Position numbers and translations under genes: made by a program
DNA from: Candidatus Campylobacter infans
GTDB taxonomy: Bacteria > Campylobacterota > Campylobacteria > Campylobacterales > Campylobacteraceae
Reading direction: 5' to 3'
Assembly: GCA_009827235.1 (NCBI GenBank)
Contig: SPMW01000011.1
Coordinates: 1-44,149, forward strand
Length of the DNA stretch: 44,149 nucleotides
The notes under the pieces: generated by a model
Databases searched by the model: none
What the model was told of the DNA's origin: nothing
Seen by the model: only the letters and a program-made list of their open reading frames with translations
In this document: in pieces, positions 1-15,672 of the stretch
Position numbering within the stretch: the first letter of the stretch is position 1
How the letters are laid out: every line of letters begins with the position of its first letter

Positions 1-3
1 TTC

Positions 4-216
4 AAAAAATTTTTAATGGTGGCAAATTGCGGAAAAAAATTAAAAATTTTTTAGCATTAAACAAAATTATTTCAATATTTAAGATTAATTAGAAAAGTAA
101 ATGAATATCGCAAAAATCGAAAATTTGCGAAAACATAATTTTATAAAATCATTATTACTACAATATTTTATGGCATTTATTATCCGCAATTTGCCACATT
201 GCATTAAAAATTTTTT
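4..216. repeat. Nested inverted repeats upstream of virB2
   Basis: Three copies of related arms are visible. Bases 4-33 and 183-216 form a 30-bp inverted repeat, interrupted in the right arm only by four extra bases (198-201). Its 15-bp GC-richer half, GTGGCAAATTGCGGA at 19-33, is perfectly complementary to 183-197. Bases 4-17 also pair perfectly (14 bp) with 39-52, which ends in T6. The two pairings compete for the same left arm. The 39-52 hairpin could be a weak terminator for a gene to the left. The longer pairing encloses about 150 bp, giving the outline of a miniature element (213 bp), but only three bases of left flank are visible. The right arm ends 37 bp before the virB2 start. No tRNA, and no convincing gene apart from a leader-less extension of virB2, is seen in 1-253. 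Confidence 0.75.
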
Positions 217-253
217 TCAAGTATTATCCCAAAAATTTTTCAAAGGAACAAAA

Positions 254-562
254 ATGAAAACAAAACTTCTAGGCAAATTTTTAGCAGTTTTTGTAGCTCT
301 ACAAACTTTTCTTTTTGCAAAAGGTAACACTAATATCGCCGATAAATTAGCAACAGATATTAATGCTGAGATTGAAAATGTTGGTAGCAGTATTGCTAGC
401 GTAGTAAATACAATTTCAGCCACATTGGGAATTATTTGGATAGTAATAATGCTCTTAATGGCATTTTTTGCTATGGAACAAATTAAACAGCACGCAAAAT
501 TATTAGTTGGTGCTTTAATTGTGATTGGTGCCGTCTATGGCTTATCATCTGCAATGATGTAA
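254..562 (+). CDS. virB2: VirB2-like T4SS pilin precursor
   Basis: A 102-residue protein with a basic N-terminus and hydrophobic signal (residues about 5-22, ending LFAKG). A polar stretch follows, then two closely spaced membrane segments (about 55-77 and 81-99) separated by a short basic QIKQHAKL turn. This is the layout of VirB2/TrbC pilins, which are cleaved and assembled from the inner membrane into the conjugative pilus. The ORF is open further upstream to 101, but only the ATG at 254 has a good ribosome site (AAGG at 244-247), and the upstream extension lacks pilin features. It is the first gene of the virB operon. The segment GIIWIVIMLLMAFFAMEQ recurs almost unchanged in the mosaic ORF at 857-1105. 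Family assignment is by architecture. Confidence 0.85.
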   Translation: MKTKLLGKFLAVFVALQTFLFAKGNTNIADKLATDINAEIENVGSSIASVVNTISATLGIIWIVIMLLMAFFAMEQIKQHAKLLVGALIVIGAVYGLSSAMM

Positions 563-599
563 AAATTTTAGAAAATATTTATAAAAAAGTAAAAACAAA

Positions 600-845
600 A
601 TGGCATTTATTTCAAAATATTTTATAGATTTAACAAAAAAAACTAAAATTAAAGGGCTAACTACAACAAGCTGGCTTGCTCTTATAATTTTAGGATTTAT
701 TAGCTGGTTTTTTTTAGTTTTATATTCAATCTTTGTAATAATCTTTTTGTATTGCTTTTTTTTCACATTAGAATTTTTTGATGAAGACATTTACAAAATT
801 TTTGGCTCTAAGTTTAAAATAAAATCAAATAAATTTTATGCATAA
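600..845 (+). CDS. virB3: VirB3-like T4SS inner-membrane protein
   Basis: An 81-residue protein with a short polar N-terminus (FIDLTKKTKIKGL), two adjacent hydrophobic segments (about 24-58) and a polar tail FFDEDIYKIFGSKFKIK. This corresponds well to VirB3, which has a short N-terminus of the F-K-G-x-T-R-P type, a membrane hairpin and a C-terminal D-D-x-x-(F/Y)-R-x-(L/F)-G motif. VirB3 works with the VirB4 ATPase at the inner-membrane base of the channel. Its position directly between virB2 and virB4 supports the call. Residues 21-45 (TTTSWLALIILGFISW and on) recur in the ORF at 857-1105. I see no strong ribosome site before the ATG. Confidence 0.75.
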   Translation: MAFISKYFIDLTKKTKIKGLTTTSWLALIILGFISWFFLVLYSIFVIIFLYCFFFTLEFFDEDIYKIFGSKFKIKSNKFYA

Positions 846-856
846 AAGGTAAAAAA

Positions 857-1105
857 ATGGGTGGATTATTTGAAAATAGTAACCAACAAAGCAAGCTTAA
901 CATCAATAAAAATGTAGTGAATATAATTTCAGCAATATTTGGAATTATTTGGGTAGCAATAATGTTTTTAATAGCATTTTTTGCTATGGAACCTACAACA
1001 AATTGGCTTGCTCTTATGATATTAGGAATTATTGGCTGGGCTTTTTTAGTTTTAATTTCAATAAAAATTTGTATGAATTTTGGCTCTAAAATTTTAAAAA
1101 GGTAA
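857..1105 (+). CDS. Mosaic small membrane protein assembled from virB4, virB2 and virB3 segments
   Basis: An 82-residue ORF that looks like a patchwork of its neighbours. Its ribosome site, start and residues 1-20 (MGGLFENSNQQSKLNINKNV) match the start of VirB4 (MGGLF, then QQSKLNINRTV) with the intervening VirB4 residues missing. Residues about 22-45 (NIISAIFGIIWVAIMFLIAF) match the VirB2 first membrane segment. Residues about 46-70 (TTNWLALMILGIIGWAFLVL) match VirB3, and the NFGSKILK tail resembles the VirB3 end. DNA similarity is high by eye (bases 941-991 against 429-480 differ at about five positions). It is intact, has a ribosome site (AAAGG) and lies in the operon, so it may be made as a two-segment membrane protein. 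It may instead be a by-product of duplication and internal deletion. No function is known to me. Confidence 0.8.
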   Translation: MGGLFENSNQQSKLNINKNVVNIISAIFGIIWVAIMFLIAFFAMEPTTNWLALMILGIIGWAFLVLISIKICMNFGSKILKR

Positions 1106-1108
1106 ATA

Positions 1109-3565
1109 ATGGGTGGATTATTTCATTTACTTTTTAAAAAAAATAGCAATAATAACAAAAAAGAAAGCAACGAACAACAAAATAAAACGCAACAAAGCAA
1201 GCTCAATATCAATAGAACTGTTGATAAAATTTTGACATCTTTTCAGCCAAAAGTTTATTCAATGGCAGAAGAAATGAATATTTGCGCGAAAATTAGTGAA
1301 GAAGTAATTGCAACACAAGATGGCAACCTAGCAATTGGATTTGAATTATTAGGAACTAGCTATGCAGCACTTACGCTAGAAGAAGAAGCGCAACTAATTC
1401 AAAACAAAGTCGAATTTTTTAACAAAATAAATAGTCAATTAGAAATAAATATCGTAACTGAAAAAAAACTAAGCAAATCTACAAGCATATTAAGAAATAG
1501 CACAAACGAATACGCAAACGAAATTATAAAAAAATATGGCAGCTTTAACCAAGACATATACAACATAAGGTATTTTTTAATAGTATCTACCACAAAAAAA
1601 ATCTTAACAGGCTCGCTTGAAAGTTTTAGAGATAAAATTACAAAAGAGCAAAACGAAGAAAACACGCAAGAAAAAATTTATCAACAAAAATATAAATTAC
1701 TTATAGATTTTCAACAAAAAATATTCGGCGAACTCAGTATGTTTAGACCACGAATTCTTAGTAGTGATGATTTAATAAATTTTTATGCAAGCTATGCTAA
1801 CGCCGATGAAACTAATTTAAAATATACATACGAAATTTTAAGCGATTGTTTTATTACAAGCAATGCAACATTTTATAAAAATTATATTTTACACAACACA
1901 AACGAAAATAAAGAAATTTATTCTTGCTTTATTAGTATAAAAGCTTATGAAAGCGAAAATATTAGCTCTTTGCTTACTTCAAAGCTTTTAAGATGTCCTA
2001 TTGAATACAGCGTATTTTTACATTTAAGGGCATACAATAAAGAAAAAGCAATTAAAAAAATTAGAGAAACTTCGGCTTTTTCAGCTGAGATAGTAAAAAA
2101 TGAATTAAGCGATTTATTAGAATTAATAACAGCTGATAGAGAAAACTTAATAGAAGTAAGTTATAGTATTTATTTGAAAGCTGATAGCCAAAAAGAATTA
2201 AATGAAAATGCTAATACAATTATTAACATTTTAAAGCTTCAAGGCCTCTCAGTAGTTAGAGAAGACTTGAACCAAAAAGCACTTTATTTTTCATTTTTTG
2301 CTAGCCGTGGAAATTTAAACGCCCGTAAAAAAACGCTAAAAACTAGCAATTTATCTACTATTTGCACTTTTGAAAAAGAAATCACAGGCTTTAATAAAAA
2401 CGATTGGGGCGATGAAGCAGTAACAACTTTTAGACACTTAAATGGAACGCCATTTTTCTTTAATTTTCATTGTGAAGAAAACGCAGATAAACCGCTAGGA
2501 CATACGATGATTATTGGTGGCTCAAGCAGTGGTAAAACAACGCTAACACAATTTTTAATGTGTAATTTATTCAAGTATGATATTGACATACTAGCATTAG
2601 ATAAGTTAAATGGTATGTATGCTTTTACTAATTATGTTAATGGCACTTATAGCACTAGCGATGATTTTAAAATAAATCCATTTAGCTTAGACCCAACACC
2701 AGAAAATTTGGCTTTTTTAGAACAATGGCTTAATACTATGGCAGGCCTAAGCGATGAAAACGCAGAAGAAAAAAGAATTATCCAAGAAACGCTAACACGC
2801 GTATATAATAATAAAGAAACCAAAGACACCATACAATTAACAAATTTTATAGAAAGCATAAGTAGTGGGGAAAGTAGTAAAGAATTAGCAAATTTGTTAA
2901 AAACAAAATTTAATCTCTACAAAGATAGTATTTTTAATAATAGCCAAGACGCTTTAAATTTTACTCAGCAATTAAGCGTGATTAATATGGACGGCTTAAC
3001 AAATTCAAACAAAACAAATAGCGCGCTTTTAGCACTTTATATTTTTCATAAACTAAAAAATAGGGCTAAAAATGGCGTTAGAAGAGGCTTTTTTTGTTTT
3101 ATTGATGAATTTAGGGACTATGTAGAAGAAGAAAATTTACGAAATAAAATCGTTGAAGCAGTATTAGAAGCACGAAAAATTGGTGGGGTTATGTGCTTAG
3201 CTTTTCAAGATATATCAATTTTTGACAAACTTAAAGACGCTCAAAATTTCTTAGGCAATATGGCTAATTTTATTATTTATCCAACAACCAGTGCTGGCAC
3301 GCTTGAAATGTTGAAAAGCACAATTGGACTTACTGAAAGTGAAGCTAAATTTTTACAAGAAACTGATATGAGAGCAAGAAAAGTGCTTTTAAAATCACCT
3401 ATTAGGCAAGAAAGCGCAGTATTAGATGTAAATTTAATGCGTTTAGGCAATCATTTAAAAATCTTTTCTAGCTCTGCAGACAATGTAAAATTAATTAAAC
3501 AATTAAAAGACCCACTCAACCCACAACAAAATTGGCGCGAGCAATTTTTAAACCACAAAGGATAG
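1109..3565 (+). CDS. virB4: VirB4 T4SS ATPase
   Basis: An 818-residue VirB4/TrbE/CagE-type ATPase, the energy-supplying core component at the cytoplasmic base of the T4SS. The N-terminal half (about 55-400) is the CagE/TrbE/VirB domain. Walker A is GGSSSGKTT at residues 470-478. A Walker B-like segment GFFCFIDEFRDYV lies near residue 665, followed by ARKIGGVMCLAFQD, typical of VirB4/TraG-type motors. Length is normal for the family. The start at 1109 has AAAAGG upstream and lies 3 nt after the mosaic ORF. Residues 6-28 are an N/K/Q-rich insert absent from the otherwise matching start of the mosaic ORF. Codon use and AT content resemble the rest of the element. Confidence 0.95.
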   Translation: MGGLFHLLFKKNSNNNKKESNEQQNKTQQSKLNINRTVDKILTSFQPKVYSMAEEMNICAKISEEVIATQDGNLAIGFELLGTSYAALTLEEEAQLIQNKVEFFNKINSQLEINIVTEKKLSKSTSILRNSTNEYANEIIKKYGSFNQDIYNIRYFLIVSTTKKILTGSLESFRDKITKEQNEENTQEKIYQQKYKLLIDFQQKIFGELSMFRPRILSSDDLINFYASYANADETNLKYTYEILSDCFITSNATFYKNYILHNTNENKEIYSCFISIKAYESENISSLLTSKLLRCPIEYSVFLHLRAYNKEKAIKKIRETSAFSAEIVKNELSDLLELITADRENLIEVSYSIYLKADSQKELNENANTIINILKLQGLSVVREDLNQKALYFSFFASRGNLNARKKTLKTSNLSTICTFEKEITGFNKNDWGDEAVTTFRHLNGTPFFFNFHCEENADKPLGHTMIIGGSSSGKTTLTQFLMCNLFKYDIDILALDKLNGMYAFTNYVNGTYSTSDDFKINPFSLDPTPENLAFLEQWLNTMAGLSDENAEEKRIIQETLTRVYNNKETKDTIQLTNFIESISSGESSKELANLLKTKFNLYKDSIFNNSQDALNFTQQLSVINMDGLTNSNKTNSALLALYIFHKLKNRAKNGVRRGFFCFIDEFRDYVEEENLRNKIVEAVLEARKIGGVMCLAFQDISIFDKLKDAQNFLGNMANFIIYPTTSAGTLEMLKSTIGLTESEAKFLQETDMRARKVLLKSPIRQESAVLDVNLMRLGNHLKIFSSSADNVKLIKQLKDPLNPQQNWREQFLNHKG

Positions 3566-3569
3566 ACAA

Positions 3570-3695
3570 ATGAAAAAAGCAATTTTTTTAGCAATTTTAG
3601 GTGCATTAATTTTAAGCGGGTGTGGCTCAAAAACAATAGAGCGCACAAGCCCTTGCGCTTGCTATGATGTAAAAACACAAATTAAGGTTATATGA
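3570..3695 (+). CDS. virB7: VirB7-like small lipoprotein
   Basis: A 41-residue protein. A short basic start and hydrophobic signal lead into a perfect lipobox, LILSGCG, with the lipidated cysteine at residue 18. The mature part, only 24 residues (CGSKTIERTSPCACYDVKTQ), has two more cysteines at 29 and 31. VirB7 lipoproteins anchor the outer-membrane core and bind VirB9, sometimes through a disulfide, so the extra cysteines are suggestive. It lies 4 nt after virB4, preceded by AAAGGA, and its stop overlaps the virB8 start (ATGA), indicating translational coupling. Position between virB4 and virB8 and size fit VirB7. The assignment rests on these features, not on sequence homology. Confidence 0.8.
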   Translation: MKKAIFLAILGALILSGCGSKTIERTSPCACYDVKTQIKVI

Positions 3696-4348
3696 TGATA
3701 CTTAACGAGCCAAAAAAAGACCCAAATTTTCTTTTTAAATTAGAAAGAAATATTAAAGCTTATATGCTTTATATAATTATGATTTTAGGTGTATCTGTAA
3801 TATTGTTAGCAGGTGCCATTATAGCAATAGCCCCACTAAAAGAAGTTAAGCCATACTTAATGTTTTTTTCAGATGGCGATACAAATTTTGTAAAAGTAAA
3901 ACCAGCAACATTAGATGTAAGAAGTGATTTAGCTTTATTAAAAAGCATTCTAGCAGGCTATGTAAAAAATAGAGAGAAAATAAATCGCATAGATGATATA
4001 CAACGCTATGAAACTACAAGAATTCAAAGCAAAAAAGAAGTATGGGTAACTTTTCAAAATATTGTAAAAAATCCAACCAGTATTTATGCTACTTCTAATA
4101 TAACACGCGAAATAAGAATAGTTAATGTGTCAATTTTACAAAAGAACATAGCACAAGTAGATTATGTAGCAACAGTAAATAACATCACAAAAAGCAACAA
4201 AGATGAAATCACCAAGTGGCGTGCTACATTAGAATTTGATTTTAAAGAAGTTATGGATACTTACAATAGCACAATCAAAAATCCAACAGGTTTTCAAATT
4301 TTAAAATATGCCGTAGAAAAAGTAGATGATTTTGTAAAAAAAGGATAA
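3692..4348 (+). CDS. virB8: VirB8 T4SS inner-membrane assembly protein
   Basis: A 218-residue bitopic protein with a short cytoplasmic N-terminus, one membrane segment at about 24-47 (LYIIMILGVSVILLAGAIIA) and a periplasmic domain of about 165 residues. The order and spacing match VirB8/ComB8, including the APLKEVKPYLMFFSDGDTNF stretch just after the membrane and a periplasmic region reading SDLALLKSILAGYVKNREKIN. VirB8 nucleates the inner-membrane complex and contacts VirB9 and VirB10. Two tandem ATGs (3692 and 3695) are possible. AAGG at 3684-3687 spaces better with the second, but the first gives the ATGA overlap with virB7. It is followed closely by virB9. Confidence 0.93.
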   Translation: MMILNEPKKDPNFLFKLERNIKAYMLYIIMILGVSVILLAGAIIAIAPLKEVKPYLMFFSDGDTNFVKVKPATLDVRSDLALLKSILAGYVKNREKINRIDDIQRYETTRIQSKKEVWVTFQNIVKNPTSIYATSNITREIRIVNVSILQKNIAQVDYVATVNNITKSNKDEITKWRATLEFDFKEVMDTYNSTIKNPTGFQILKYAVEKVDDFVKKG

Positions 4349-4351
4349 TAA

Positions 4352-5451
4352 ATGAAAAAAATATTTTGTTTAAATTTACTAGCTTTTTCTTTATACGCAA
4401 ATACAGGCGAAAGTATATTTGCAACAAACCAAGAACATAATCCACAAAATATAATAAAAAGCTCAATTGCCGTAAATTCTAATTCTAATTACGCTCAAAA
4501 TTCAGCGCAGGCATACGAGCAAGCAGAACAAAATTTAGCACAAGAATTCGAACAAATAAGACAAGCACAAGAAGAAATAAAGCAGTTGCAACAAGGCAGA
4601 AAAAGCACAAATAATAGCAAAAATAATAGCGAAGATGAAATAAGCGCAAATGAATTAGAATTAATCAAACAAGCTATGAGAAACCAAGATTTAAAAGCCC
4701 TACAAAAGAATTTTTTTAATAAAAATTATAGCGGGTTTGAAAATACAAGCGAAATAGAATTTCAGCCAAACAAAACGCACAAAATTCGCACCCGTTTTGC
4801 TATGGCAACAACGCTAATATTCGATAGCGACATTGATAGTTTTATTGTAGGCGATAAAAATTTTAAAGCAGAAGCAGTGCCAAACACGCCAAGCGCACTA
4901 GTAATCAAGCCACTTTTAATAGGCATTGATACAAGCCTTACAATTTTTACAAAAGATAAAAACATACACACATTTTATCTTTACTCAACAGATTATAAGA
5001 GCAAAGATAATCCTAAATTTTTAATTCACATAAAAAGCAATAATCAAGCAACGCAAGACAACGCAGAGCAAACAAACGATGATTATTTTGTGATTAAAGA
5101 CGGCATAGCCGAAGTAAAAGTAAAAAAAAGTGATATAAACGATAATTACACACAAAAATATAAAAAGGCAAATTCGTGGTTAGTTGCAGAAGAGATATTT
5201 AGTGATAAAAAATTTACTTACTTTAAATATAGCAAAGATAAATTACCACAAATTCCTACCATATTTGCCGTAATTGATAAGCAAGACAGCCCAATTGAAA
5301 CTAGAACGATTGGCGATTATATCATTGCTGAAACTACTAATCCAAAATTTACTATTAAAAGTGGCGATAGCTATATATGTGTAGAAAACACACAAAAACA
5401 AACAAGAACACAAAATAAAGCAAATTTTAACACTACAAAAAGCGAGCAAAA

Positions 5452-5455
<4 letters not shown>
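4352..5455 (+). CDS. virB9: VirB9 T4SS outer-membrane core protein
   Basis: A 367-residue secreted protein with a signal peptide (residues 1-16, cleavage near LYA-N). A Q/E-rich, probably coiled segment at about 45-115 is followed by the VirB9/CagX/TrbG domain (about 125-345). Recognisable parts are the first beta region with IDTSLTIFTKDKNIHTFYLY and the C-terminal lobe with PTIFAVIDK, then DYIIAETTNPKFTIKSGDSY. VirB9 forms the outer-membrane core ring with VirB7 and VirB10. It is longer than many VirB9 proteins because of the coiled N-terminal insert. The stop overlaps the virB10 start by 4 nt. Nothing suggests damage. Confidence 0.93.
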
Positions 5456-6564
<1,109 letters not shown>

Positions 6565-6584
6565 TCATTACAAAGGAAAAACAA

Positions 6585-6806
6585 ATGCAAGAACAAAATG
6601 TAGAACAAATCAAAGCACAAATCAAAAAACAAGAGAAAGCGCGCATACTTCAAGGCAAACAAAATAGCGCAATAGAAAAACAATTAAAAAAATTCGAAGT
6701 AATCGAAAAGAAGTATAACAAAGAAAAACAAAAGCTTTTAGATTTAGTAGAAAAAAGCAAAGGCAATTTTAATAACGACAGCGACAAGGACACTAAAAAT
6801 GGCTGA
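6585..6806 (+). CDS. Small coiled-coil protein of the virB operon, unknown
   Basis: A 73-residue, highly charged K/E/Q-rich protein with no membrane segment and no signal. Heptad-like spacing of I/L/V from residue 6 to 60 predicts one long coiled coil, followed by a short N/D-rich tail. It has a good ribosome site (AAAGGA) and overlaps the virB11 start by 8 nt, so it is probably translated with VirB10 and VirB11. Its place between virB10 and virB11 suggests a cytoplasmic partner of one of the motors, but this is inference from position only. It is not convincing as VirB5, which is exported, because it lacks a signal peptide. Confidence 0.75.
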   Translation: MQEQNVEQIKAQIKKQEKARILQGKQNSAIEKQLKKFEVIEKKYNKEKQKLLDLVEKSKGNFNNDSDKDTKNG

Positions 6807-7788
6807 AATCACATTAGTATTAAAAAATATTCTAAGCAAATTAGATAAGTATTTAAGCCTGAAAGCAAACGAGCTTATTTTTAACAAAGCCGGTGAAATT
6901 TTTGTAGATTATGGCAATAAATGGGAAATTATCAAAGATGAAAGCTTAACAGCCGATTTTTTAAATGATTTTTTAATAGAGCTTGCAAATAGAAGAAATC
7001 AACAATTTAATACAACGCATTGTCATCTATCGTGTGAATTGCCAGAGCCATATTTGCGTTATAGAGTGCAAGCACAGCATAAAAGCTCATTATTTAATAG
7101 TGATATAGCTATTTGTATAAGAATACCTAGCAAAAATCAATATCCATTAGAGAGCTTTATTTTAAGCGATTTATGCATTAAGCAGGGCTGGACTTATGAA
7201 AAGTTAAAAGAGCTAATACATCAACATAAAAATGTGTTAGTTAGTGGCGGCACAGGCACGGGCAAAACTAGCTTTTTGAATTCTTTAATGAGTGAAATTG
7301 ACAAAGACGAAAGAATAGTAACTATTGAAGATAGCCAAGAGCTAAAAATTGACAATATCAACAAAACTCAATTAGCAGTGCCAAAAATAGCCAATGAAAA
7401 TTACAGCTACCAAATCGCAATAGATAATGCAATGCGTTTGCGCCCAGACAGGTTATTTTTAGGCGAAATTGACATTCGCAACACTTTTAGCTTTTTGCGT
7501 GTGAATAATACAGGCCACACAGGCAATCTTAGCACCCTGCACGCCAATTCGCCAAAAGATGCTATTAAAGCCATAATCACTAACACAATTTTAGGTGGTG
7601 GTTTGGGTGGCAATGTAGATAATAAAACTATAACAGATTTAATTATTACAGCAATAGATTATATTATACAAATTCAAAGAGTAAAAAATCAAAGAATAAT
7701 TACAGACATTTTAGATTTAAAACAATTTTTAGCACAACAAGCTGAAACTAAAACAGCTACTAGAACAACCAAAAGAAGCAAAAAATAA
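6799..7788 (+). CDS. virB11: VirB11 T4SS traffic ATPase
   Basis: A 329-residue hexameric ATPase of the VirB11/PilT/GspE superfamily. The N-terminal domain (about 1-130) is followed by a RecA-like core. Walker A GGTGTGKTS is at residues 150-158, and an acidic Asp-box-like segment RIVTIEDSQELKI is near 173-185. A Walker B-like segment, RLRPDRLFLGEI, carries the conserved glutamate of GEI. The His box reads GHTGNLSTLHANS. All expected motifs are intact and length is normal. VirB11 acts with VirB4 and VirD4 to switch between pilus assembly and substrate transfer. The stop overlaps the next ATG by one base (TAATG). Confidence 0.95.
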   Translation: MAEITLVLKNILSKLDKYLSLKANELIFNKAGEIFVDYGNKWEIIKDESLTADFLNDFLIELANRRNQQFNTTHCHLSCELPEPYLRYRVQAQHKSSLFNSDIAICIRIPSKNQYPLESFILSDLCIKQGWTYEKLKELIHQHKNVLVSGGTGTGKTSFLNSLMSEIDKDERIVTIEDSQELKIDNINKTQLAVPKIANENYSYQIAIDNAMRLRPDRLFLGEIDIRNTFSFLRVNNTGHTGNLSTLHANSPKDAIKAIITNTILGGGLGGNVDNKTITDLIITAIDYIIQIQRVKNQRIITDILDLKQFLAQQAETKTATRTTKRSKK

Positions 7789-8171
7789 TGAAAAAAGTTT
7801 GTAGGCATCATTTTTATTTAAACCAAGATGATTTAGAAATTTTAAACTCAATCATTGCAACTACAAAACTAAGCAAATCGGCAGTAATTAGACATTTAAT
7901 TCGCAGCAAAAAATATATTCAAGCAGTTAGAGAAATACAAAATTTTAACAAAACTAACGAAGAGTTTTTAAACCAATTAAAGCGCATAGGCGTAAATATA
8001 AATCAAGTATTAAATTTTTTAAAAAAGAGTATAGGCACGCAAGATGAAAACACAAATTCTTTGATAGAGCAACTAAATCAAGTTAATAAAAAAATAGATG
8101 ATTATACAAACAATTCACAAACTTTAATGCTAAGCATAAAACCAAAAAAATATAAAAGCGTAAAGGAGTAA
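7788..8171 (+). CDS. MobC-like relaxosome accessory protein
   Basis: A 127-residue basic protein. Residues 8-40 (HFYLNQDDLEILNSIIATTK, then LSKSAVIRHLI) have the beta strand-helix-helix pattern of ribbon-helix-helix DNA-binding proteins. A later segment, LKRIGVNINQVLNFLKK, has the G-x-N-(I/L)-N-Q signature typical of MobC/relaxosome accessory proteins. Such proteins bind near oriT and help load the relaxase. It lies between virB11 and virD4, overlapping the former by one base and 2 nt before the latter. No relaxase is in the window, so its partner and oriT presumably lie to the left. The family call is by motif; the DNA target is unknown. Confidence 0.75.
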   Translation: MKKVCRHHFYLNQDDLEILNSIIATTKLSKSAVIRHLIRSKKYIQAVREIQNFNKTNEEFLNQLKRIGVNINQVLNFLKKSIGTQDENTNSLIEQLNQVNKKIDDYTNNSQTLMLSIKPKKYKSVKE

Positions 8172-8173
8172 TA

Positions 8174-10086
8174 ATGCAAAAAACTATCAGTCCATTAAAA
8201 TGGTGTTTTATTTTTTTAACTAGTGCCGTTTTAGGTGTAATGATTTTTTATTTGTCAGTTTATTTCATTTTTAAGCCTGATTTTTTAAACACACTAAAAG
8301 TAGCACATAATATTTTAAATAATCTTGGCAACGCCCATTTAAAAATCAAAGCTTATTATCCAATTTTTTATGGCCTGCTACCTATGATAATAACACTTAT
8401 TTGGTTTTTTATGCCTAGAACTCAAACCAACGAAACTTATGGTAACGCAAGATTTGCAACTAAAAAAGATTTTAAAGAGCTTGGAATTTCAAATGATAAT
8501 GGCTTGATTTTAGGAACTTTTATAAATAAAAATAGAAAAAATGAAGTTATCGGTTTTGATTTTATAAGAGCTAACAAACCATTAGCAACATTAGTAGTTG
8601 CGCCCCCTGGGCGTGGTAAAACCGCAGGTATTATCATACCAAATCTTTTTACTATTAAAAATTCTTGCGTGGTATTTGATATTAAAGGTGAATTATTACA
8701 AAAAACCGCAGGTTACAGGCAAGAAATTTTAGAAAATGAAGTGCAAGTATTTAGCCCTTTTTCTTGGGATAATACGCTATTTTTTAACCCCTTTGATAAT
8801 TCAATAGTTAAAGATATGCAATACATTCATATCAAAAAATTAGCAGAGCAAATAGCTAGCACAATTTTTGTAGGCGAAAAAGGAAAAGAAAACGACCACT
8901 GGGTAGTATCAGCAAAAACTATGTTTGTATTTTTTGCCGAATACTTTTTACAAAAAAACAAGCACACAACACTAGGCGAATTAGCACAAGCACCAAAAGC
9001 CGATTATTATGATAAATTAGACCCTGAAAAAGAATTTTTTAAAGAAGTTAATAAATATGATGAACACGAAAACGACAAATGGTTAGGTAGAGATTATAGC
9101 AAAGATACTTTTAAAACTTGGCTAAAAGAAGTAAGCGCAGACGAAAGCTTAGATGATAATACAAGAAATCAAGCGCGCGCTTATTCAACAGCAGCAGAAC
9201 AAGAATTTGCAAGCATAAAATCAACTTATGATAGTTTTATGAAAGTATTTACTAATCCGCAAGTAGCAAACGCAACAAGCAAAATGAGCTTTGCTTTTAA
9301 AGATTTAAGAGAAAAAAAATTATCACTTTATATAGTAATTCAAACAGAAGATATGGAAGTGCTAGCACCATTAGTAAGAATTTTTACTGAAACGCTATTT
9401 AAAACTTTAATGAGTGGCGAAGAATGCTCTGATCCAAATAAGTTTATTTATTGCTTTTTAGATGAATTTGTGCGCTTTGGAAAAATGCCATTTTTGCTTG
9501 AAGCTCCCGCACTTTGCCGAAGCTATGGACTTATACCTGTTTTTGTTACTCAATCTTACGAACAAATCAAAAAATATTACGGCGAAGATGATTTAGCAAT
9601 TATTACAGCTAACGCAGGCTATCAAACAATATTTGCTATGAATACCACAGCAGACGCAAAAAAATTAGTGAGCTTATAGGTGATTTTACTAGAACTAAAT
9701 CTAGCGTTAGTCAAGGTAACTTAGATTTATTCAAAAACAATCAAAGCATAAGCAAAGAGGGCTATAAATTAGTTACCGAGCAAGACATTAAAAATCAAAA
9801 AAGCGAAGATTTATTAATCCTAGTAGGCGGATTTTTAAATAGACCTATAAAGTGTAAAGTGCCTTATTGGTTTAAAAATCCAGACTGGGTAGATGCAGAC
9901 AAAAAAGAATTAAAACAAGTTAATAATAAGGAAGAAGATAATGCAACAAGTAACAAGAATAATAATACAAACAATAACGCGAACGATAACGCTAATAATA
10001 GCACAAAAGATAATGCGAACGATAATGCAGAAAATGAAAAACAAAACAAAATAAAACTTGAAGATTTAGGAATAAAAACAGCATAA
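8174..10086 (+). CDS. virD4: VirD4 coupling protein, split by a -1 frameshift at an A7 tract
   Basis: VirD4/TraG-type coupling protein linking the relaxosome to the channel. Two N-terminal membrane segments (about 10-35 and 60-76) precede a RecA-like motor with Walker A APPGRGKT at 143-150 and a Walker B region near FIYCFLDEFVRFG. The initial frame stops at 9677-9679 (501 residues, ending KKLVSL). The minus-one frame continues without a stop from base 9664 to 10086 and reads ISELIGDFTRTKSSVSQGNL, followed by a plausible VirD4 C-terminus and an N/D/K-rich tail. The junction is the A run at 9658-9664, in slippery phase A AAA AAA. One added base restores a single 637-residue protein. Possible causes are a homopolymer sequencing error, a real mutation or phase variation, programmed -1 frameshifting, or transcriptional slippage. 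Ribosome site AAGGAG is at 8163-8168. Confidence 0.9.
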
Positions 10087-10190
10087 AAAAATCAAAATAA
10101 GGGGGCATACAATGAAAACTTAGTTATTAAAATTTTATTATAAAGCAAGCATAAAACAACAAAATAGAAAAAATATTTATAGGGGTTTAA

Positions 10191-10397
10191 ATGACAAACA
10201 CAGAATATTTACAAGCATTAGAAGCTAAAAGAGAAAAAGATTTAGGTGAATTAGGCCAACAACATTCAAGCAGCCAAATTCTAAGCAATGATGAATATAA
10301 AGAATTAGCTAACAAAGAATATTTAAAGCCAAAAAATCAAATATTTTTTGACGCTAACGATGTTAATGATGAAGCAGAAGCAATGGATTTGCAATAA
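10191..10397 (+). CDS. Small acidic hypothetical protein
   Basis: A 68-residue soluble acidic protein (MTNTEYLQALEAKREKDLGE and on) with no signal, membrane segment or recognised domain. It is preceded by AGGGG about 5 nt before the ATG, which supports translation. It lies in the cargo stretch between virD4 and the ArdC-N-like gene. The 104-nt gap before it contains a strong ribosome site (AAGGGGG at 10099-10105) followed by a three-codon ORF (ATG at 10112, stop TAG at 10121-10123), possibly the remnant of a lost gene. Function unknown. Confidence 0.6.
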   Translation: MTNTEYLQALEAKREKDLGELGQQHSSSQILSNDEYKELANKEYLKPKNQIFFDANDVNDEAEAMDLQ

Positions 10398-10411
10398 AAC
10401 TTCATACACAC

Positions 10412-10435
10412 ATTCATAGATAAAAAACTATGAAT
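10412..10435. promoter_or_regulatory. Hairpin in the leader of the ArdC-N-like gene
   Basis: An 8-bp perfect inverted repeat, ATTCATAG (10412-10419) and CTATGAAT (10428-10435), with an 8-nt A-rich loop, sits in the 69-bp gap before the gene at 10467. No T run follows on either strand, so it is not a classic terminator. Downstream there are two similar purine-rich sites containing AAGGACAA, at about 10437 and 10456. The second is the likely ribosome site. A role as operator or mRNA-processing signal is only a guess. Confidence 0.4.
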
Positions 10436-10466
10436 TAAGGACAAATTTTTAAAAAAGGACAACATT

Positions 10467-11348
10467 ATGGCAACAAAAAAATCAAACACACAAACCAAGC
10501 AACAAGTTGAAGTAGTTGATAAAAAAGAAAGTGCTACCAAGTTTAAAAGCTGGGAGCAGAAGAATAATTTTGAAAGGCTAGAAAGTATAAATAGCTATAA
10601 TCGGATGATTATAGCGACAAATATAAAACAAGCCAGACAAAATGGAAATCAACCATTTTATGGCATAGATATGCAACTAAAAGATATAGATGCAACTATG
10701 CCTTATAATCCAAGCAACGGCAAGCCCTTTGGTGGAGAACTCTCAATGATAATGAGAGCAGACGCCCAAACGCGTGGCTATGAAAGCGCAGAGTATATAA
10801 CTATGAAACAAGCCAACTTTTTAGGCGGTAAATTGCGACAAGAACAAGACGAAAAAGGCAAATTGCTATTTAACGAAAATGGCACTAAGAAATACCCCAA
10901 CGGAGTGAAAAGCGCTTATATGGCTGAGTTTGAGTATAAGCCAAAAACCAACGAAAACGGAGAAATAATTCAAGCGAAAGACAAAGACGGCAAGCCAAAA
11001 TTTGATAATCGTGGCGAAATAGTGCCAGTAATGGAAAAAATCGCCCTAAAAGAGCCGAAGTTGGAAACGGTAACATATTATCATATTAGCGCATTTGACG
11101 GCATAGATAATGCCAAGCTACAAAAAAGAAATATGAATGTAGTAAATGAATACCGCAAAGAACTACAAGGCCAACAAAATGATTATAGGTCTAATCTATC
11201 GCATTTAGGATTAGCACCTAAAACCCAAAAAGATTTGGAGAATTTTTTAGATAGTCAAACCAAAGGTAAAGATTATCAAGCTATCCAACATACAAATATA
11301 AGAGAAGTGCAAAACGAACTAAGCCAAAGCCAAGGCAGAAGTTTTTAA
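10467..11348 (+). CDS. ArdC N-terminal-domain antirestriction-like protein
   Basis: A 293-residue soluble protein. Residues about 77-135 show the pattern of the ArdC N-terminal domain (ssDNA binding): MPYNPSNGKPFGGE, then RGYESAEYITMKQANFLGGK. This resembles the usual NP-x-(T/S)-GK-x-(Y/F)-x-G and (W/Y)-x-T-x-x-QA-x-x-x-GG motifs. Classical ArdC has a C-terminal zinc peptidase-like domain with HEXXH; none is present here. Instead residues 140-230 hold a polar insert and a conserved-looking TVTYYHISAFDGID segment, followed by a Q/N-rich tail. ArdC-type proteins coat incoming single-stranded DNA and protect it from host restriction, so a location in a conjugative element makes sense. Domain call is good; antirestriction activity is inferred. 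Confidence 0.75.
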   Translation: MATKKSNTQTKQQVEVVDKKESATKFKSWEQKNNFERLESINSYNRMIIATNIKQARQNGNQPFYGIDMQLKDIDATMPYNPSNGKPFGGELSMIMRADAQTRGYESAEYITMKQANFLGGKLRQEQDEKGKLLFNENGTKKYPNGVKSAYMAEFEYKPKTNENGEIIQAKDKDGKPKFDNRGEIVPVMEKIALKEPKLETVTYYHISAFDGIDNAKLQKRNMNVVNEYRKELQGQQNDYRSNLSHLGLAPKTQKDLENFLDSQTKGKDYQAIQHTNIREVQNELSQSQGRSF

Positions 11349-11387
11349 ATCTTTTTAATGTGTTTGTCGTTTAGCTAAATAAATATT

Positions 11388-11420
11388 ATGTGCGCTAAAT
11401 AGTAAATGTTTAGCGCATAT
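11388..11420. promoter_or_regulatory. 12-bp hairpin just upstream of the 11434 gene
   Basis: TGCGCTAAA (11391-11399) and TTTAGCGCA (11409-11417) are perfectly complementary. The stem extends by a G-T pair and two A-T pairs to 11388 and 11420, with a 9-nt loop. It lies 3 nt before the ribosome site AAGGA (about 11424) of the next gene. Only four T residues follow, so it is at best a weak terminator of the ArdC-N-like transcript. It could equally be an operator or a structure controlling translation of the downstream gene. Confidence 0.55.
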
Positions 11421-11433
11421 TTTAAGGATATGA

Positions 11434-11700
11434 ATGTTAGAAGATTTTTTAAAATTTTTAGGCCTAGATAATAACACAAAAGATAACATACAAGATAATG
11501 CAATAAATAATACAAAAGATAATATAAAAGATAATAATACACAGCATAAAATTTTAGAAGTAGAAAACGCAAATTTTGAAGAAATAGTAACAACCAAAGA
11601 AGAAAATGGAAAAATCATTAAAGAAATCACAAAAATTAAGCCACTTGATAAAAAAACAGCACAAATAACAAAACAAATCATAGAAATTACAAGGTTTTAA
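11434..11700 (+). CDS. Small N/D-repeat hypothetical protein
   Basis: An 88-residue acidic protein. Residues 13-35 are tandem N-T-K-D-N-I/A-type repeats (NTKDNIQDNAINNTKDNIKD), followed by a K/E/I-rich segment. No signal or membrane segment and no recognised domain. The repeat is similar in sequence and codon pattern to the tail of VirD4 (residues about 590-625, N-S-T-K-D-N-A-N-D-N-A), suggesting a shared slippage-prone repeat or a common origin. It lies 1 nt before virB6 and has the ribosome site AAGGA. It may be part of the secretion operon, but its function is unknown. Confidence 0.65.
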   Translation: MLEDFLKFLGLDNNTKDNIQDNAINNTKDNIKDNNTQHKILEVENANFEEIVTTKEENGKIIKEITKIKPLDKKTAQITKQIIEITRF

Positions 11701-11701
11701 A

Positions 11702-12868
11702 ATGGCAGTAGAAACAGCAGGCAAAGTTATCTCTAATTCGTCTTGGATTGATGAAATCCAAGGCGTAATGCAAAATCAGCTTAGCTCATTACTAGAAAAT
11801 ATTTTTAATAGTGTTAGCAAAATTATCCACGGGCAAGCTTCTTATACAATTGTGGGTTTAATTGTGTGTATTTGGCTATTAAAACAGCTCCGCACAGGCT
11901 ATCCTACACAAGATGAATTATTTTCAGCTGGCAAATGGATTATTGTAACTTGCTTTGTATTCGCAGCATACGCTAGCTATGATAATTTTACAACAATTTT
12001 AGGTTGGTTTTATTTGCCTGCAAGTTGGGTAATCTCAGCTATGAATGATGCATTAGGCAATCAAATCGGCAACAGCTTAGCCCAAACAATTACAAATTTG
12101 ATGAATAGTGTATCTCTTATTTGTAGCACTATGCTAGAAAAAGCTTATGAAGCAAGCAAAAGTGATGTTTGGTTTGTTGGAGATGTAGCAAATATATATA
12201 TAAAAATAATTGTGGCAATAACTATGTTCCCTACTTATTTTTTTGCGTTTATGTATTATATATTATGTTTTGCTATTGCGGCAATAGTAATAGCAAGTGT
12301 ATTTATAGCTATGTTAATTTTATCATTTGCGCCTTTGGTAGTTTGCTTTTTAAATATATCTTTTTTAAAGCCTTATTTTTTCTCTTGGCTAAAATTATTC
12401 ATTACATATTCATTATTTGCGCCTATTGCTTTATTTGTAACAGCATTAGCAAGCAAGCCAATCGCGGATATTCAAAGTATGTCCCCAGCTGAATTAGGAA
12501 ATATTTACCTTGAGGGCAGGCAATGGGATACATTTTTAGTGCCTACATTATGCGCTTTTCTTTGCATATTTTTATTAAGAAAAATCCCTGTTTGGATAAG
12601 CCAAATTTTAGGCGTAAATAATTTAGACGGAGGTGGCTCAAATGTAGGCTCTGCAGCAGTAGGCATGGCAGGTAAATTAGCTGGTGTAGGTGCTGTGGGC
12701 GCAGTAGCTGGGCGCGTAGCAGGCACAGGTGCTTTAAAAAACGCTCTTGGCAGTATGGGGCAAAGCTTGCCTGGTGGTAGCACAATTGCAAGTATTATGA
12801 AAAATGCAAGGGAGGCAGGAAAAGGAGTTACAAATTCTAGTGGAACATCAATACCAGGTGGCTTATAA
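11702..12868 (+). CDS. virB6: VirB6 T4SS polytopic inner-membrane protein
   Basis: A 388-residue polytopic membrane protein with about six hydrophobic segments between residues 55 and 300. These include SYTIVGLIVCIWLLKQL, a cluster around 155-235 and a last segment FLVPTLCAFLCIFLLRKIP. A Gly/Ala-rich C-terminal tail follows. Topology, size and the central periplasmic loop fit VirB6/TrbL, which forms part of the inner-membrane pore. In many systems virB6 lies between virB5 and virB8; here it is displaced behind virD4 and three cargo genes, so the operon has been rearranged or interrupted. It is the only VirB6 candidate in the window. Confidence 0.88.
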   Translation: MAVETAGKVISNSSWIDEIQGVMQNQLSSLLENIFNSVSKIIHGQASYTIVGLIVCIWLLKQLRTGYPTQDELFSAGKWIIVTCFVFAAYASYDNFTTILGWFYLPASWVISAMNDALGNQIGNSLAQTITNLMNSVSLICSTMLEKAYEASKSDVWFVGDVANIYIKIIVAITMFPTYFFAFMYYILCFAIAAIVIASVFIAMLILSFAPLVVCFLNISFLKPYFFSWLKLFITYSLFAPIALFVTALASKPIADIQSMSPAELGNIYLEGRQWDTFLVPTLCAFLCIFLLRKIPVWISQILGVNNLDGGGSNVGSAAVGMAGKLAGVGAVGAVAGRVAGTGALKNALGSMGQSLPGGSTIASIMKNAREAGKGVTNSSGTSIPGGL

Positions 12869-12913
12869 AGCTTAAAAAATATAAATATAAAACACACTAA
12901 CAAAGGATATAAA

Positions 12914-14878
12914 ATGCAAAATTCAGTAATCATAATTGAAAGCCCAAATAAAGAGGCAAAAATAGCTCAAATTACAGGCGCAAAAGTATTTGCCACAAAA
13001 GGACACTTTAAAACATTAACTAAGCTAATCGTAAAAGATTATCAAAGTTACGAACCAGAATTTGAATTTAAAGATGATAAAGCAAAATTTACTATCAATA
13101 AAATTATAACCGAATGTAAAGGCAAAGAAGTAATCATAGCAACCGACCCCGACCGCGAGGGTTATGGAATTGGTTATTTATTTTATGAAATGGTAAAAAA
13201 TCAAGCTCAAAGCGTAAAAAGGGCTGAATTCCACGAAATTACAGAAAGTGGCATTAAAAAAGGACTTGATAATGCTATCCCCTTTTCATCATCTAATTTC
13301 AATGAATTTAGTGCCTTTAAAGCACGCGCCGTAGGCGATAAATTAGTGGGCTTTATTTTAAGCCCAAAATATTTACAAATAAGCAAGGATTATAATGTAT
13401 CCGTTGGACGCGTGCAAACGCCTGCTTTATCTTTAATCGTTAAAAGAGAGCTAGATATAAAAGAATTTAACGAAAACGCAGAAAACAAAAAAATAGATTA
13501 CAAAATAAAAGTAAAATTATCTAAAAATGGCGTAGAATTTTATGCCATCAATGATAATATTTACCAAAGCATAGATGAAGCAAACGAAAAGATAAAAAGC
13601 CTAAATGAAATCAAAAAAGCCAAAGTTTATGGCGTTGATAAAAAAGAAGCGCAAATAAAACCAAACGCGCCATTTAGGACAAGTCAATACCAAGAAGCAG
13701 CGAATAAAAAATTTGGCTTTTCTAGCGAAGTTGCTATGGCCTTAGCACAGAAATTATTTGAAAAAGGCTTAATTACTTATCACAGAACAGATAGCAATAG
13801 TTTATCTACTGAGTTTTTAAATGAAGTAGAAAATAAGTTTAAATCTTGCCAATGGTATGAAAAAAGAGAATATAAAGCAGGCAATCAAAGCCAAGCCCAG
13901 GCGCACGAAGCTATAAGAATTTCGCACATACACGATTTTAGAGAAATAGAAAACATAGCGCAAAAAGAAAGCCTAAGTGATGATGAAATAAAGGCTTATA
14001 CTTTAATTTATACTAACTCCCTTTTAAGTCAAGCAAAAAATGCTATAAATGAAAATTTTACTTATGATATAGACATTAACGCACTTAGCTTTAAAGCAAA
14101 AAGTAGCAAAGTAATTTATAAAGGCTTTAAAGGCGTTTTTGAGAGCTTTACTGATGATGAAAACGAAGAAACGCAAGATGAAATAAAAGAAGTAAGCAAT
14201 TTAGAATTACAAAAAGATGAAGAGCTAGATATTTTAAGCTTTGAATTACAAGAAGTAAAGAAAAAAGCACCTAGCAAATATAAAGAGAGTAATTTTATTA
14301 GCTTACTTGAAAAAGAAAAAATAGGCAGGCCAAGCACATATGCTACATTTTTGCCAAAGCTTTTACAAAGAGAATTCATACAAATTGTAAAAAAAGGTAA
14401 AAACAACGAAATAGTAGCCACGCAAAAAGGCATAAATTTTATAGAAAGCCTTAGAAATAATGGTGATGAGTGGATAACTAAAAGCGAATTCACAGCTCAA
14501 ATGGAAGAGGTTTTAGATGAAATTAGCGCGGGCAAGCAAGAATACCTAAATTTTATCAAGCCTTTACACGAAAAGCTTGGAAATGTAGAAGTAAAAGAAC
14601 AAGAAAAGAAAATAAGCCCGCCAAGCCCAAAACAGCTAGAATTTGCTAAACAATTAGCGCAAAAAACAGGCTTAGAATTACCAAGCAACATAGAAGAAGA
14701 CTATAAAATTTGTAATGAATTTATAGAAAAGGCAAAAGCACAAGTGCCACCAAGCCCAAAACAAATAGAATTAGCCAAGAAGCTAGCAAACGATAAAAAA
14801 GTAGATTTACCAAAGAATTTTGAAAAAAGTTTAGAAATATGCTCTAAATTCATCGATAAACACATTAAATCTAAATAA
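12914..14878 (+). CDS. Type IA DNA topoisomerase with C-terminal tandem repeat
   Basis: A 654-residue TopA/TopB-family enzyme that relaxes or decatenates DNA through a 5'-phosphotyrosine. The Toprim domain has IIESPNKEAKI near the N-terminus and D78-P-D80-R-E82. The active-site tyrosine is Y289 in LITYHRTDSNS, and a conserved RPSTYATFLPKLLQRE segment lies near residue 475. There are no zinc-finger cysteines at the C-terminus. Two copies of a repeat of about 43 residues, starting SPKQLEFAKQLAQKTGLELP and SPKQIELAKKLANDKKVDLP, end the protein. Topoisomerases of this type are common cargo of conjugative elements and may help process transferred DNA. It differs from a chromosomal TopA in its short tail. 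Ribosome site AAAGGA. Confidence 0.92.
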   Translation: MQNSVIIIESPNKEAKIAQITGAKVFATKGHFKTLTKLIVKDYQSYEPEFEFKDDKAKFTINKIITECKGKEVIIATDPDREGYGIGYLFYEMVKNQAQSVKRAEFHEITESGIKKGLDNAIPFSSSNFNEFSAFKARAVGDKLVGFILSPKYLQISKDYNVSVGRVQTPALSLIVKRELDIKEFNENAENKKIDYKIKVKLSKNGVEFYAINDNIYQSIDEANEKIKSLNEIKKAKVYGVDKKEAQIKPNAPFRTSQYQEAANKKFGFSSEVAMALAQKLFEKGLITYHRTDSNSLSTEFLNEVENKFKSCQWYEKREYKAGNQSQAQAHEAIRISHIHDFREIENIAQKESLSDDEIKAYTLIYTNSLLSQAKNAINENFTYDIDINALSFKAKSSKVIYKGFKGVFESFTDDENEETQDEIKEVSNLELQKDEELDILSFELQEVKKKAPSKYKESNFISLLEKEKIGRPSTYATFLPKLLQREFIQIVKKGKNNEIVATQKGINFIESLRNNGDEWITKSEFTAQMEEVLDEISAGKQEYLNFIKPLHEKLGNVEVKEQEKKISPPSPKQLEFAKQLAQKTGLELPSNIEEDYKICNEFIEKAKAQVPPSPKQIELAKKLANDKKVDLPKNFEKSLEICSKFIDKHIKSK

Positions 14879-14890
14879 AGGTTTAAAACG

Positions 14891-15271
14891 ATGAAAATTC
14901 AACTAATGCTAGACTTGCAAGGTGAATTTATAAAAGTTACAAACAATAAAGCAAAAACTATTACGATAGCTACTTTAAGATTTTGTGATAAAAAGAATGC
15001 GTTATATGATAATTGCTGGGAATTAAAAACTACAAGAAACGCACAAAGCAAGATAGATAGTATTATTATTCAAGCTGATACTAAAAAATTAAATAATGCA
15101 GAACTTACCAAAATTTTACAATATTTTAAAAATGATTTTGGCATAGGTGATAAATATTGCGAACAAAAGCTAATCATTAAAGTTGAATGCGATGATTTAA
15201 TTTTAAATGTGATTGATGATGATATTATGGATAATTTAGATAGACACGAAAAAAAAGAGGTAGCCGTATAA
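14891..15271 (+). CDS. Hypothetical soluble protein
   Basis: A 126-residue protein with no membrane segment or signal and an acidic C-terminal third (LNVIDDDIMDNLDRHEKK). The N-terminal region MKIQLMLDLQGEFIKV and alternating hydrophobic residues suggest a mainly beta fold. It starts 12 nt after the topoisomerase gene with AAAGG upstream, so the two are probably cotranscribed. I recognise no family. A role in DNA handling with the topoisomerase is possible but unsupported. Confidence 0.65.
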   Translation: MKIQLMLDLQGEFIKVTNNKAKTITIATLRFCDKKNALYDNCWELKTTRNAQSKIDSIIIQADTKKLNNAELTKILQYFKNDFGIGDKYCEQKLIIKVECDDLILNVIDDDIMDNLDRHEKKEVAV

Positions 15272-15273
15272 AT

Positions 15274-15294
15274 AAAAAAAGGGGCAAAAGCCCC
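15274..15294 (-). terminator. Rho-independent terminator acting on minus-strand transcripts
   Basis: GGGGC (15281-15285), loop AAAA and GCCCC (15290-15294) form a perfect GC stem. Read on the minus strand the stem is followed directly by seven T residues (15280-15274), which is the full terminator layout. On the plus strand there is a hairpin but no T run. Since all neighbouring genes are on the plus strand, it would stop antisense transcription entering the element or serve an unannotated minus-strand RNA. Confidence 0.6.
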
Positions 15295-15322
15295 GGGTGT
15301 TGCTTGGAAAACAGAAAGGAAA

Positions 15323-15366
15323 AAAACGCGTAGAAACAAGAAAGAGAAATTATAGCCACGCGTTTT
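15323..15366. repeat. 9-bp inverted repeat in the pre-integrase intergenic region
   Basis: AAAACGCGT (15323-15331) and ACGCGTTTT (15358-15366) are exact reverse complements separated by 26 nt of purine-rich sequence. This lies within the 128-bp gap between the genes at 14891 and 15400, next to the GC hairpin at 15281. The similar strings AAATTATAGC and GAATTATAGC (about 15346 and 15374) also recur here. The arrangement could be a binding site for a regulator or recombination-directionality factor, or part of a small structured RNA. The sequence alone does not decide. Confidence 0.5.
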
Positions 15367-15399
15367 CAGGTTTGAATTATAGCAAAAAAGGATATATTT

Positions 15400-15639: not shown

Positions 15640-15660
15640 CACTTAACGAAAAAATTATGT

Positions 15661-15666
15661 TACAAT
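15661..15666 (+). promoter_or_regulatory. Possible promoter -10 for a leaderless integrase mRNA
   Basis: TACAAT at 15661-15666, preceded by TG two bases upstream, sits 6 nt before the integrase ATG at 15673. No ribosome site is visible before that ATG. If this -10 is used, transcription would start at or next to the A of the ATG, giving a leaderless message. This is a weak prediction from spacing only. Confidence 0.35.
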
Positions 15667-15672
15667 TTACGA

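Follow-up and report, generated by a model that had tools for sequence, protein, structure and literature searches.

The ORF between virB3 and virB4

What is the small ORF that separates virB3 from virB4 in a transfer operon of Candidatus Campylobacter infans, how might it have arisen, and does its product have a role? The ORF occupies positions 857-1105 on the forward strand of the window, the 44,149-nucleotide stretch of DNA analysed here, between virB3 (600-845) and virB4 (1109-3565). It is intact, starts with ATG and encodes 82 amino acids, with homologues in the protein clusters P0001-P0003. Its neighbours lie on the same strand. The pilin gene virB2 (254-562) has Campylobacter homologues and a TrbC/VirB2 Pfam match below cut-off (E 3.5e-4), and virB3, whose VirB3 Pfam match is also below cut-off (E 0.029), matches CINF_0616 of Candidatus Campylobacter infans at 99%. 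The ATPase gene virB4 matches PF03135 above cut-off (E 1e-30) and TIGR00929 below its cut-off (E 7.9e-144).

A first-pass annotation, made from the DNA alone, had described 857-1105 as a mosaic of virB4, virB2 and virB3. Indeed, alignments to all three genes exceeded shuffled controls at both the protein and the DNA level. In local protein alignments against 2000 residue shuffles, the mosaic scored 101 with virB2 (shuffle maximum 60), 87 with virB3 (shuffle maximum 60) and 58 with the first 80 residues of virB4 (shuffle maximum 55), the last being the weakest of the three. With a second seed, none of 500 shuffles equalled any of these scores. The DNA matches, judged against 1000 triplet shuffles, comprised 79 ungapped bp between 914-992 and virB2 401-479 (score 108, shuffle maximum 38), 70 ungapped bp between 993-1062 and virB3 661-730 (score 90, shuffle maximum 40), and a match with small gaps between 873-929 and virB4 1179-1232 (score 54, shuffle maximum 42). 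The virB2-like and virB3-like blocks are in frame and abut at 992/993. As a control, virB2, virB3 and virB4 were compared with one another and showed no resemblance above shuffles. Segments from at least two neighbours, each above chance, are thus present, as expected of a chimera formed by tandem duplication. Among the 13 direct-repeat families in the first 17 kb, the mosaic matches make up three of the four longest, with identities of 87% (D2, the virB2 segment), 86% (D3, the virB3 segment) and 77% (D4). An early estimate of about five differences over 52 bases of virB2 was right within one base: 429-479 and 942-992 differ at 440, 444, 452, 454 and 460.

The alignments divide the locus into four parts. 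The virB4-like part (834-913, gapped alignment to 1086-1219) holds the virB3-end, ribosome-site and start region plus the first ~19 codons, and is 54 nt shorter than the corresponding region of virB4. The virB2-like part (914-992) corresponds to the first helix of the mature pilin, and the virB3-like part (993-1062) to the first membrane segment of VirB3 only. The stretch 1063-1123 aligns with gaps to 731-871 and represents a remnant of the virB3 tail together with the old virB3-virB4 joint; 448 gap placements score equally here, so that the breakpoints are inexact. The mosaic had been credited with the VirB3 hairpin and tail, of which the first segment and remnants of the tail are present, while the second hydrophobic segment is largely missing. 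Its last codons overlap the ribosome site of virB4. Judged by these alignments, the ORF is a three-parent chimera of virB2, virB3 and virB4 pieces.

Probable origin by tandem duplication

The pieces follow one another in the order virB4 start, virB2, virB3, virB3-virB4 joint, virB4, the order expected if the duplicated unit stopped within the 5' part of the gene that follows. This order would result from a single tandem duplication, from mid-virB2 through virB3 to about codon 38 of virB4, followed by trimming, an origin to which we give a probability of roughly 0.85. Such a duplication would have placed a second joint of virB4 start and virB2 middle ahead of virB4. An in-frame loss of ~181 nt would then have joined the helix from virB2 to the first one from virB3, and ~80 nt would have been lost from the virB3 tail of the copy. 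The 54-nt difference between virB4 and the virB4-derived part of the copy may be a gain or a loss. Duplication of virB2-virB3-virB4 with internal recombination had been proposed at the outset, and the alignments and direct repeats strongly support it. Assemblers can be misled by short repeats, and the mosaic might in principle be an artefact of this kind; we rejected this as scarcely credible, since the repeat copies are 13-23% diverged rather than identical and other records hold allelic forms and a diverged homologue. The locus offers a clean view of a gene after its birth from three adjacent genes, with the parents, the joints and a less-changed allele still readable.

No tRNA genes were found in the window, and the search for a repeat common to the left end and the integrase-side stretch returned one unconvincing 12-bp match.

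Homologues and distribution

The chimera occurs in three protein clusters (99%, 93% and 67-71% identity), with eight member sequences in P0001 and one each in P0002 and P0003. All are open, as predicted proteins must be: a protein database can yield intact ORFs only, and broken mosaics are invisible there. The joints are alike in all three clusters, and a single origin, common to at least one diverged lineage, is therefore likely from the sequences. P0003, 71% identical to the window mosaic, has the same virB2/virB3 joint and the same SKILKR end, and these agreements made an independent origin unlikely despite one additional residue at its virB4/virB2 joint and four in its tail. P0002 differs from the window at four positions of the VirB3-derived part and carries the VirB3 residue at all four. 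Three of these residues, S49, I54 and S60, are probably ancestral because P0003 has them too; the fourth, F58, could reflect gene conversion or chance.

Neither the 398 genomes sampled across the order nor 153 genomes of a related family yielded a full-length copy of the mosaic. In these genomes virB3 usually abuts virB4, the undivided arrangement expected of relatives without a mosaic. Among 39 relatives' loci in which an ORF of at least 300 aa follows virB3, 32 have the two overlapping or separated by no more than 15 nt; in seven further loci the stretch retrieved contained no ORF of that size. The remaining seven of the 39 have unrelated small ORFs in the space before the large one. The suggestion that related T4SS loci carry a series of such chimeras found no support in these seven roomy loci: when each of their nine small ORFs (at least 30 aa) was compared with the virB2, the virB3 and the N-terminus of the next ORF of its own locus, none of the 27 comparisons showed similarity (lowest p 0.054). 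The mosaic protein had no match at E<=1 among plasmids, and no viral contig carried VirB4 or a match to the mosaic alignment. A VirB4 search of genome contigs gave four Helicobacter loci, at 32-41% identity.

Predicted product and topology

The ORF had also been taken to encode an intact small membrane protein, and a two-helix membrane product is likely from its hydropathy and a low-confidence structure model (helices 3-44 and 50-81; mean pLDDT 68, pTM 0.35). Lysine and arginine number two at the N-terminus, none in the loop and four at the C-terminus. The product is probably an inner-membrane hairpin with no signal peptide and both ends cytoplasmic, a predicted topology in which both helices are turned round relative to their VirB2 and VirB3 parents. 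The mosaic would have its own duplicated ribosome site, with virB4 following immediately. Searches of Pfam and NCBIfam gave the mosaic no family match above cut-off, PHROGs gave none at E<=0.1, and no solved structure resembled it at E<=1.

The first-pass annotation had offered a variant pilin or a substitute VirB3 as functions. The mosaic contains the first helix of each: residues 20-45 match the first helix of the adjacent VirB2/TrbC pilin (PF04956) except at 7 of 26 positions, and the first membrane segment of VirB3 (PF05101) is retained with 6 of 22 positions changed, together with the tail remnants. Unlike a pilin, however, it lacks a second helix and a basic loop, shows no signal peptide on inspection by eye and gives no TrbC match at E<=1. 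Unlike VirB3, it has lost the second helix and the lysine-rich start and gives no VirB3 match at E<=1. Full-length virB2 and virB3 moreover adjoin it. Both roles were rejected as very improbable.

Selection on the mosaic

The branch leading to the mosaic carries 12 replacement and 2 silent changes, and its evolution is near neutral. Membrane character was nonetheless retained somewhat beyond the expectation from drift. From the parents to the window, helix hydropathy was equal or higher in 1.4-5.1% of neutral runs, and the corresponding test for new charges was not significant (P 0.071-0.095). From the window to P0003, none of 18 helix replacements introduced a charged residue (2.3-3.0% of runs; P 0.023-0.030), and the hydropathy test was not significant (P 0.085-0.156). 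Two of the four tests thus gave values below 0.05 (about 0.04 and 0.02); since no correction was made for the four tests, the case for selection is modest. Selection, if any, would preserve membrane character and not exact residues. The best-conserved parts of P0003 are the start (2 of 21 residues changed) and the last six residues (unchanged), both of which overlap ribosome sites.

Accessory protein or tolerated debris

Two readings, each tentative, have equal weight. We lean, barely, towards an accessory protein of the inner membrane, under weak selection and belonging to the VirB2/VirB3/VirB4 module; that the ORF is tolerated debris is equally likely. According to the latter, the trimmed duplicate is kept open for the passage of ribosomes from virB3 to virB4 and the protein itself is idle: to reach virB4, ribosomes leaving virB3 would require a frame that stays open up to the virB4 ribosome site and stops there. 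The excess of replacement over silent changes, the conservation of P0003 at its ribosome-site-bearing ends, the tight spacing behind virB3 in relatives, the retention of the stop and ribosome-site arrangement in the mosaic locus and the two non-significant membrane-character tests all favour debris. Against it stand the two tests below 0.05 and the fact that the frame is still open in a 29%-diverged copy; coupling, moreover, would be restored by deletion too. If the protein is idle, the locus exemplifies the long persistence of an open by-product in an operon.

As a dispensable accessory, the protein would be located in the inner membrane alongside VirB2, VirB3 and VirB4, where it would modulate pilin recruitment or VirB3-VirB4 assembly. 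This specific function, which we infer weakly, is doubtful. Helix 1 of R388 VirB3 is a proposed binding station for VirB2 in the passages cited (PMC9259494); a docking role of the mosaic is weakened because the predicted topology reverses both helices relative to the parents. The virD4 ORF of the mosaic-bearing element is frameshifted, an observation counted against the accessory reading.

A more far-reaching reading, which we regard as improbable, is that the conjugation machine has built itself a new regulator of the inner membrane from its own parts, one that would act at the site of pilin recruitment as a self-made brake or as an exclusion factor and that two lineages of Campylobacter elements share. 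Such a protein would combine the first helix of the pilin with the VirB3 helix thought to dock it, in reversed topology, and use the VirB4-derived start as an anchor. If the protein works, it would illustrate how subunits of a transfer machine can give rise to its regulators or exclusion factors.

Entry exclusion or self-inhibition as such, in which a piece of the machine blocks a second incoming or competing machine in cells that hold the element, is if anything slightly less probable. The mosaic is a small predicted inner-membrane protein within a transfer operon, fast-changing and seen in one sequence group only. TraS-type exclusion proteins are likewise small inner-membrane proteins of transfer systems, the TraS of F being located in the inner membrane (PMC12624023). 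However, we found no sequence relation to TraS-type proteins, and the database searches identified no family, with the limit that Pfam, NCBIfam and PHROGs may not hold every exclusion family. The mosaic also derives from the pilin and VirB3 rather than from a known exclusion target, and related operons lack it.

Likeness to known systems

Pilin genes are also multiplied in the T4SS of Anaplasma phagocytophilum, which, in the sections cited from PMC3556328, has 8 to 15 virB2 paralogues depending on the strain, encoding pilins with a signal peptide and two helices; the mosaic, in contrast, is a single gene joined from three parents. The operon shares its gene order (virB2, virB3, virB4, virB7, virB8, virB9, virB10, a small ORF, virB11) with the Campylobacter coli plasmid pRM1875_35kb and a Campylobacter jejuni plasmid, but in each of these virB3 and virB4 are separated by 9 nt, with no gene in the gap. 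Both virB2 and virB3 are annotated as hypothetical on these plasmids.

A chimeric ORF built from its three neighbours

The first-pass annotation described the 82-aa ORF at 857-1105 (the mosaic) as pieced together from the neighbouring virB2 (254-562), virB3 (600-845) and virB4 (1109-3565). Protein alignment bore this out, with scores of 101 against VirB2, 87 against VirB3 and 58 against the N-terminal 80 residues of VirB4; the best of 2000 shuffles reached 60, 60 and 55, respectively. With a second seed, none of 500 shuffles scored as high against any of the three, and the same alignment test found no similarity among virB2, virB3 and virB4 themselves. At the DNA level, 79 bases of virB2 (401-479) match 914-992 of the mosaic without gaps, and 70 bases of virB3 (661-730) match 993-1062, also ungapped and directly adjoining the virB2-like part. 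Gapped matches link 834-920 to 1086-1228 (ribosome site, ATGGGTGGATTATTT and QQSKLNIN) and 1063-1123 to 731-871, the latter running through the next start codon. The VirB3 part had been read as membrane hairpin plus tail; the alignments contain remnants of the tail, but only a single helix in place of the hairpin. No virB2/virB3/virB4 chimera is described in the available excerpts of the open-licence PMC literature, including PMC7892663, PMC6968651, PMC12624023, PMC4822827, PMC3556328 and PMC9259494.

The pieces lie in the order expected from tandem duplication of a unit spanning 401 to about 1219, at a time when the mosaic was not yet there. The second copy would open with the virB4 start fused to mid-virB2 and close at virB3-virB4. 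Loss of 480-660 in this copy would have joined virB2 to virB3 in frame, and about 80 nt would have been lost from its tail, where the breakpoints are approximate because the gaps can be placed in 448 equally good ways. The virB4-derived part falls 54 nt short of its counterpart in virB4, which fits both loss in the mosaic and gain in virB4. The last codons of the mosaic (KR, stop) cover the former ribosome site of the old virB3-virB4 joint; five relatives likewise have a ribosome site at the virB3 stop.

Distribution of the mosaic

Three protein clusters matched the mosaic in a protein search (E<=0.1): P0001 (99% identity, 8 member sequences), P0002 (93%) and the 87-aa P0003 (67% by BLASTP, 71% in alignment). 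P0003 shares the virB2|virB3 joint and the final six residues with the mosaic, and is longer by one residue at the virB4|virB2 joint and by four in the tail.

Genomes were searched in two sets without a known mosaic carrier: an even sample of 398 from the order to which G001 belongs (the genome with a Helicobacter suis locus), and the 153 that make up the family of G238, a genome with a 67% identical VirB3 that is taken to be near Campylobacter. Matches occurred in 13 of the 398 (E<=0.01) and 12 of the 153 (E<=0.001), none spanning residues 1-82. The best (genome G013, 5.3e-7) is virB2, since it covers only residues 19-59 and lies 61 bases before a virB3 match. Matches starting before residue 16 (3-59, 9-76, 11-79, 13-79) hold stops; a longer stop-free match, in genome G279 (residues 20-79, E 0.0057), lies within a 210-aa frame.

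VirB3 relatives were found in 27 of the 398 genomes (E<=1e-4) and 19 of the 153 (E<=1e-10). Downstream of virB3, 39 of 46 loci have an ORF of at least 300 aa (putative virB4) within the fetched stretch. The gap is at most 15 nt in 32 of these, some overlapping by up to 17, and 93-409 nt in the other seven, although these counts are not independent, several loci being from one genome or near-identical. No mosaic origin was found for the nine small ORFs in the seven wide-gap loci. The related plasmids C. coli pRM1875_35kb and one from C. jejuni have 9-nt gaps at this joint. A tblastn search of plasmids with the mosaic gave no match at E<=1. In two related loci, virB3 is separated from the next large ORF by a short hydrophobic one (L068, 1744-1899, 51 aa; L070, 1780-1920 after turning to the minus strand, 46 aa); the two are alike by eye and neither resembles its own neighbours.

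Near-neutral change and modest evidence of selection on membrane character

The mosaic differs from virB2 by 7 replacement and 3 silent changes over 26 codons, and from virB3 by 8 and 2 over 22. Changes were polarised by majority over 13 (virB2) and 18 (virB3) distinct segments from 25 relative loci, leaving out segments below 45% identity or identical in DNA. This placed 12 replacement and 2 silent changes on the mosaic branch and 3 and 3 on the parents, an assignment that is rough at third positions. Evolution on the mosaic branch is near-neutral.

Membrane character was compared with neutral simulation in four tests, each with three base compositions. From parents to window, hydropathy was as high in 1.4-5.1% of neutral runs (1.6-4.7% in a repeat) and no new charge arose in 7.1-9.5%; from window to P0003, the values were 8.5-15.6% and, for no new charge among 18 replacements, 2.3-3.0%. 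Uncorrected for the four tests, these values are modest evidence of weak selection on the mosaic for being a membrane hairpin. The chance of no stop arising was 21-30% and 12-21% for the two steps. A protein database shows intact ORFs only and would miss decayed copies. In P0003, 2 of 21 N-terminal residues changed, compared with 18 of 48 in the helices (Fisher p 0.02); the ribosome site, function or conversion by virB4 could each account for the slower N-terminal change.

Predicted product and possible role

AlphaFold2, run on a 4-row alignment, predicted helices at 3-44 and 50-81 with low confidence, and the charges suggest that both ends are inside and the loop outside. The stretch lost from the mosaic included the VirB2 basic loop and the lysine-rich VirB3 start; if both parents have their usual topology, this loss means that the mosaic helices would be reversed relative to theirs. 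VirB3 itself is described as having two inner-membrane helices (PMC12624023), and in R388 co-evolution suggests that VirB2 binds at helix 1 of VirB6 and helix 1 of VirB3 (PMC9259494). In the mosaic, the first pilin helix is linked to a segment that, by order, corresponds to VirB3 helix 1. An accessory modulating pilin recruitment would thus be the most concrete functional idea. The reversed topology and the near-neutral replacement both argue against a close fit, and it is equally likely that the mosaic is tolerated debris coupled to virB4 translation.

The surrounding element

Over its first 17 kb, the window resembles an integrated element carrying a VirB-type transfer operon. After virB2, virB3, the mosaic and virB4 comes a small lipoprotein-like ORF (by eye, from about 3570; the place of virB7 in the related C. 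coli plasmid), followed by virB8, virB9, virB10, a small ORF, virB11, a weak NikA/MobC-like match (7788-8171) and virD4, and then by an ArdC-N-like protein, virB6, a topoisomerase and a tyrosine integrase. At the protein level, virB3 shares 99% identity with CINF_0616 of Candidatus Campylobacter infans. For strain 19S00001, PMC7892663 reports a chromosome of 1,754.5 kb and a 'putative integrated phage' that includes a T4SS conjugative transfer system and is probably the element seen here; a word search of the available text on the organism in PMC6968651 returned no T4SS terms. A Pfam scan of 20 ORFs in 1-16809 recognised no relaxase; because both related plasmids have theirs 5' of virB2, on the opposite strand, one may sit just left of the window.

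The coupling-protein gene virD4 (8174-10086) is frameshifted in this sequence: its ORF ends at 9679, and what is probably the C-terminal part, recognised by eye from an Asn-rich tail, follows in the next frame. Mutation, a phase-variable run or a sequencing error would explain this. Similar Asn/Asp-rich arrays of a 12-nt repeat (family D1) lie in the virD4 tail region (9923-10062) and at 11468-11535 in the ORF 11434-11700. The virB2 database entries P0040 and P0042 (153 aa) place the start upstream, equivalent to 101-562; a ribosome site and signal peptide, both by eye, favour 254. The AT-rich stretch 5' of virB2 is flanked by a 15-nt inverted repeat, GTGGCAAATTGCGGA (19-33 and 183-197), a possible operator or transfer-origin element.
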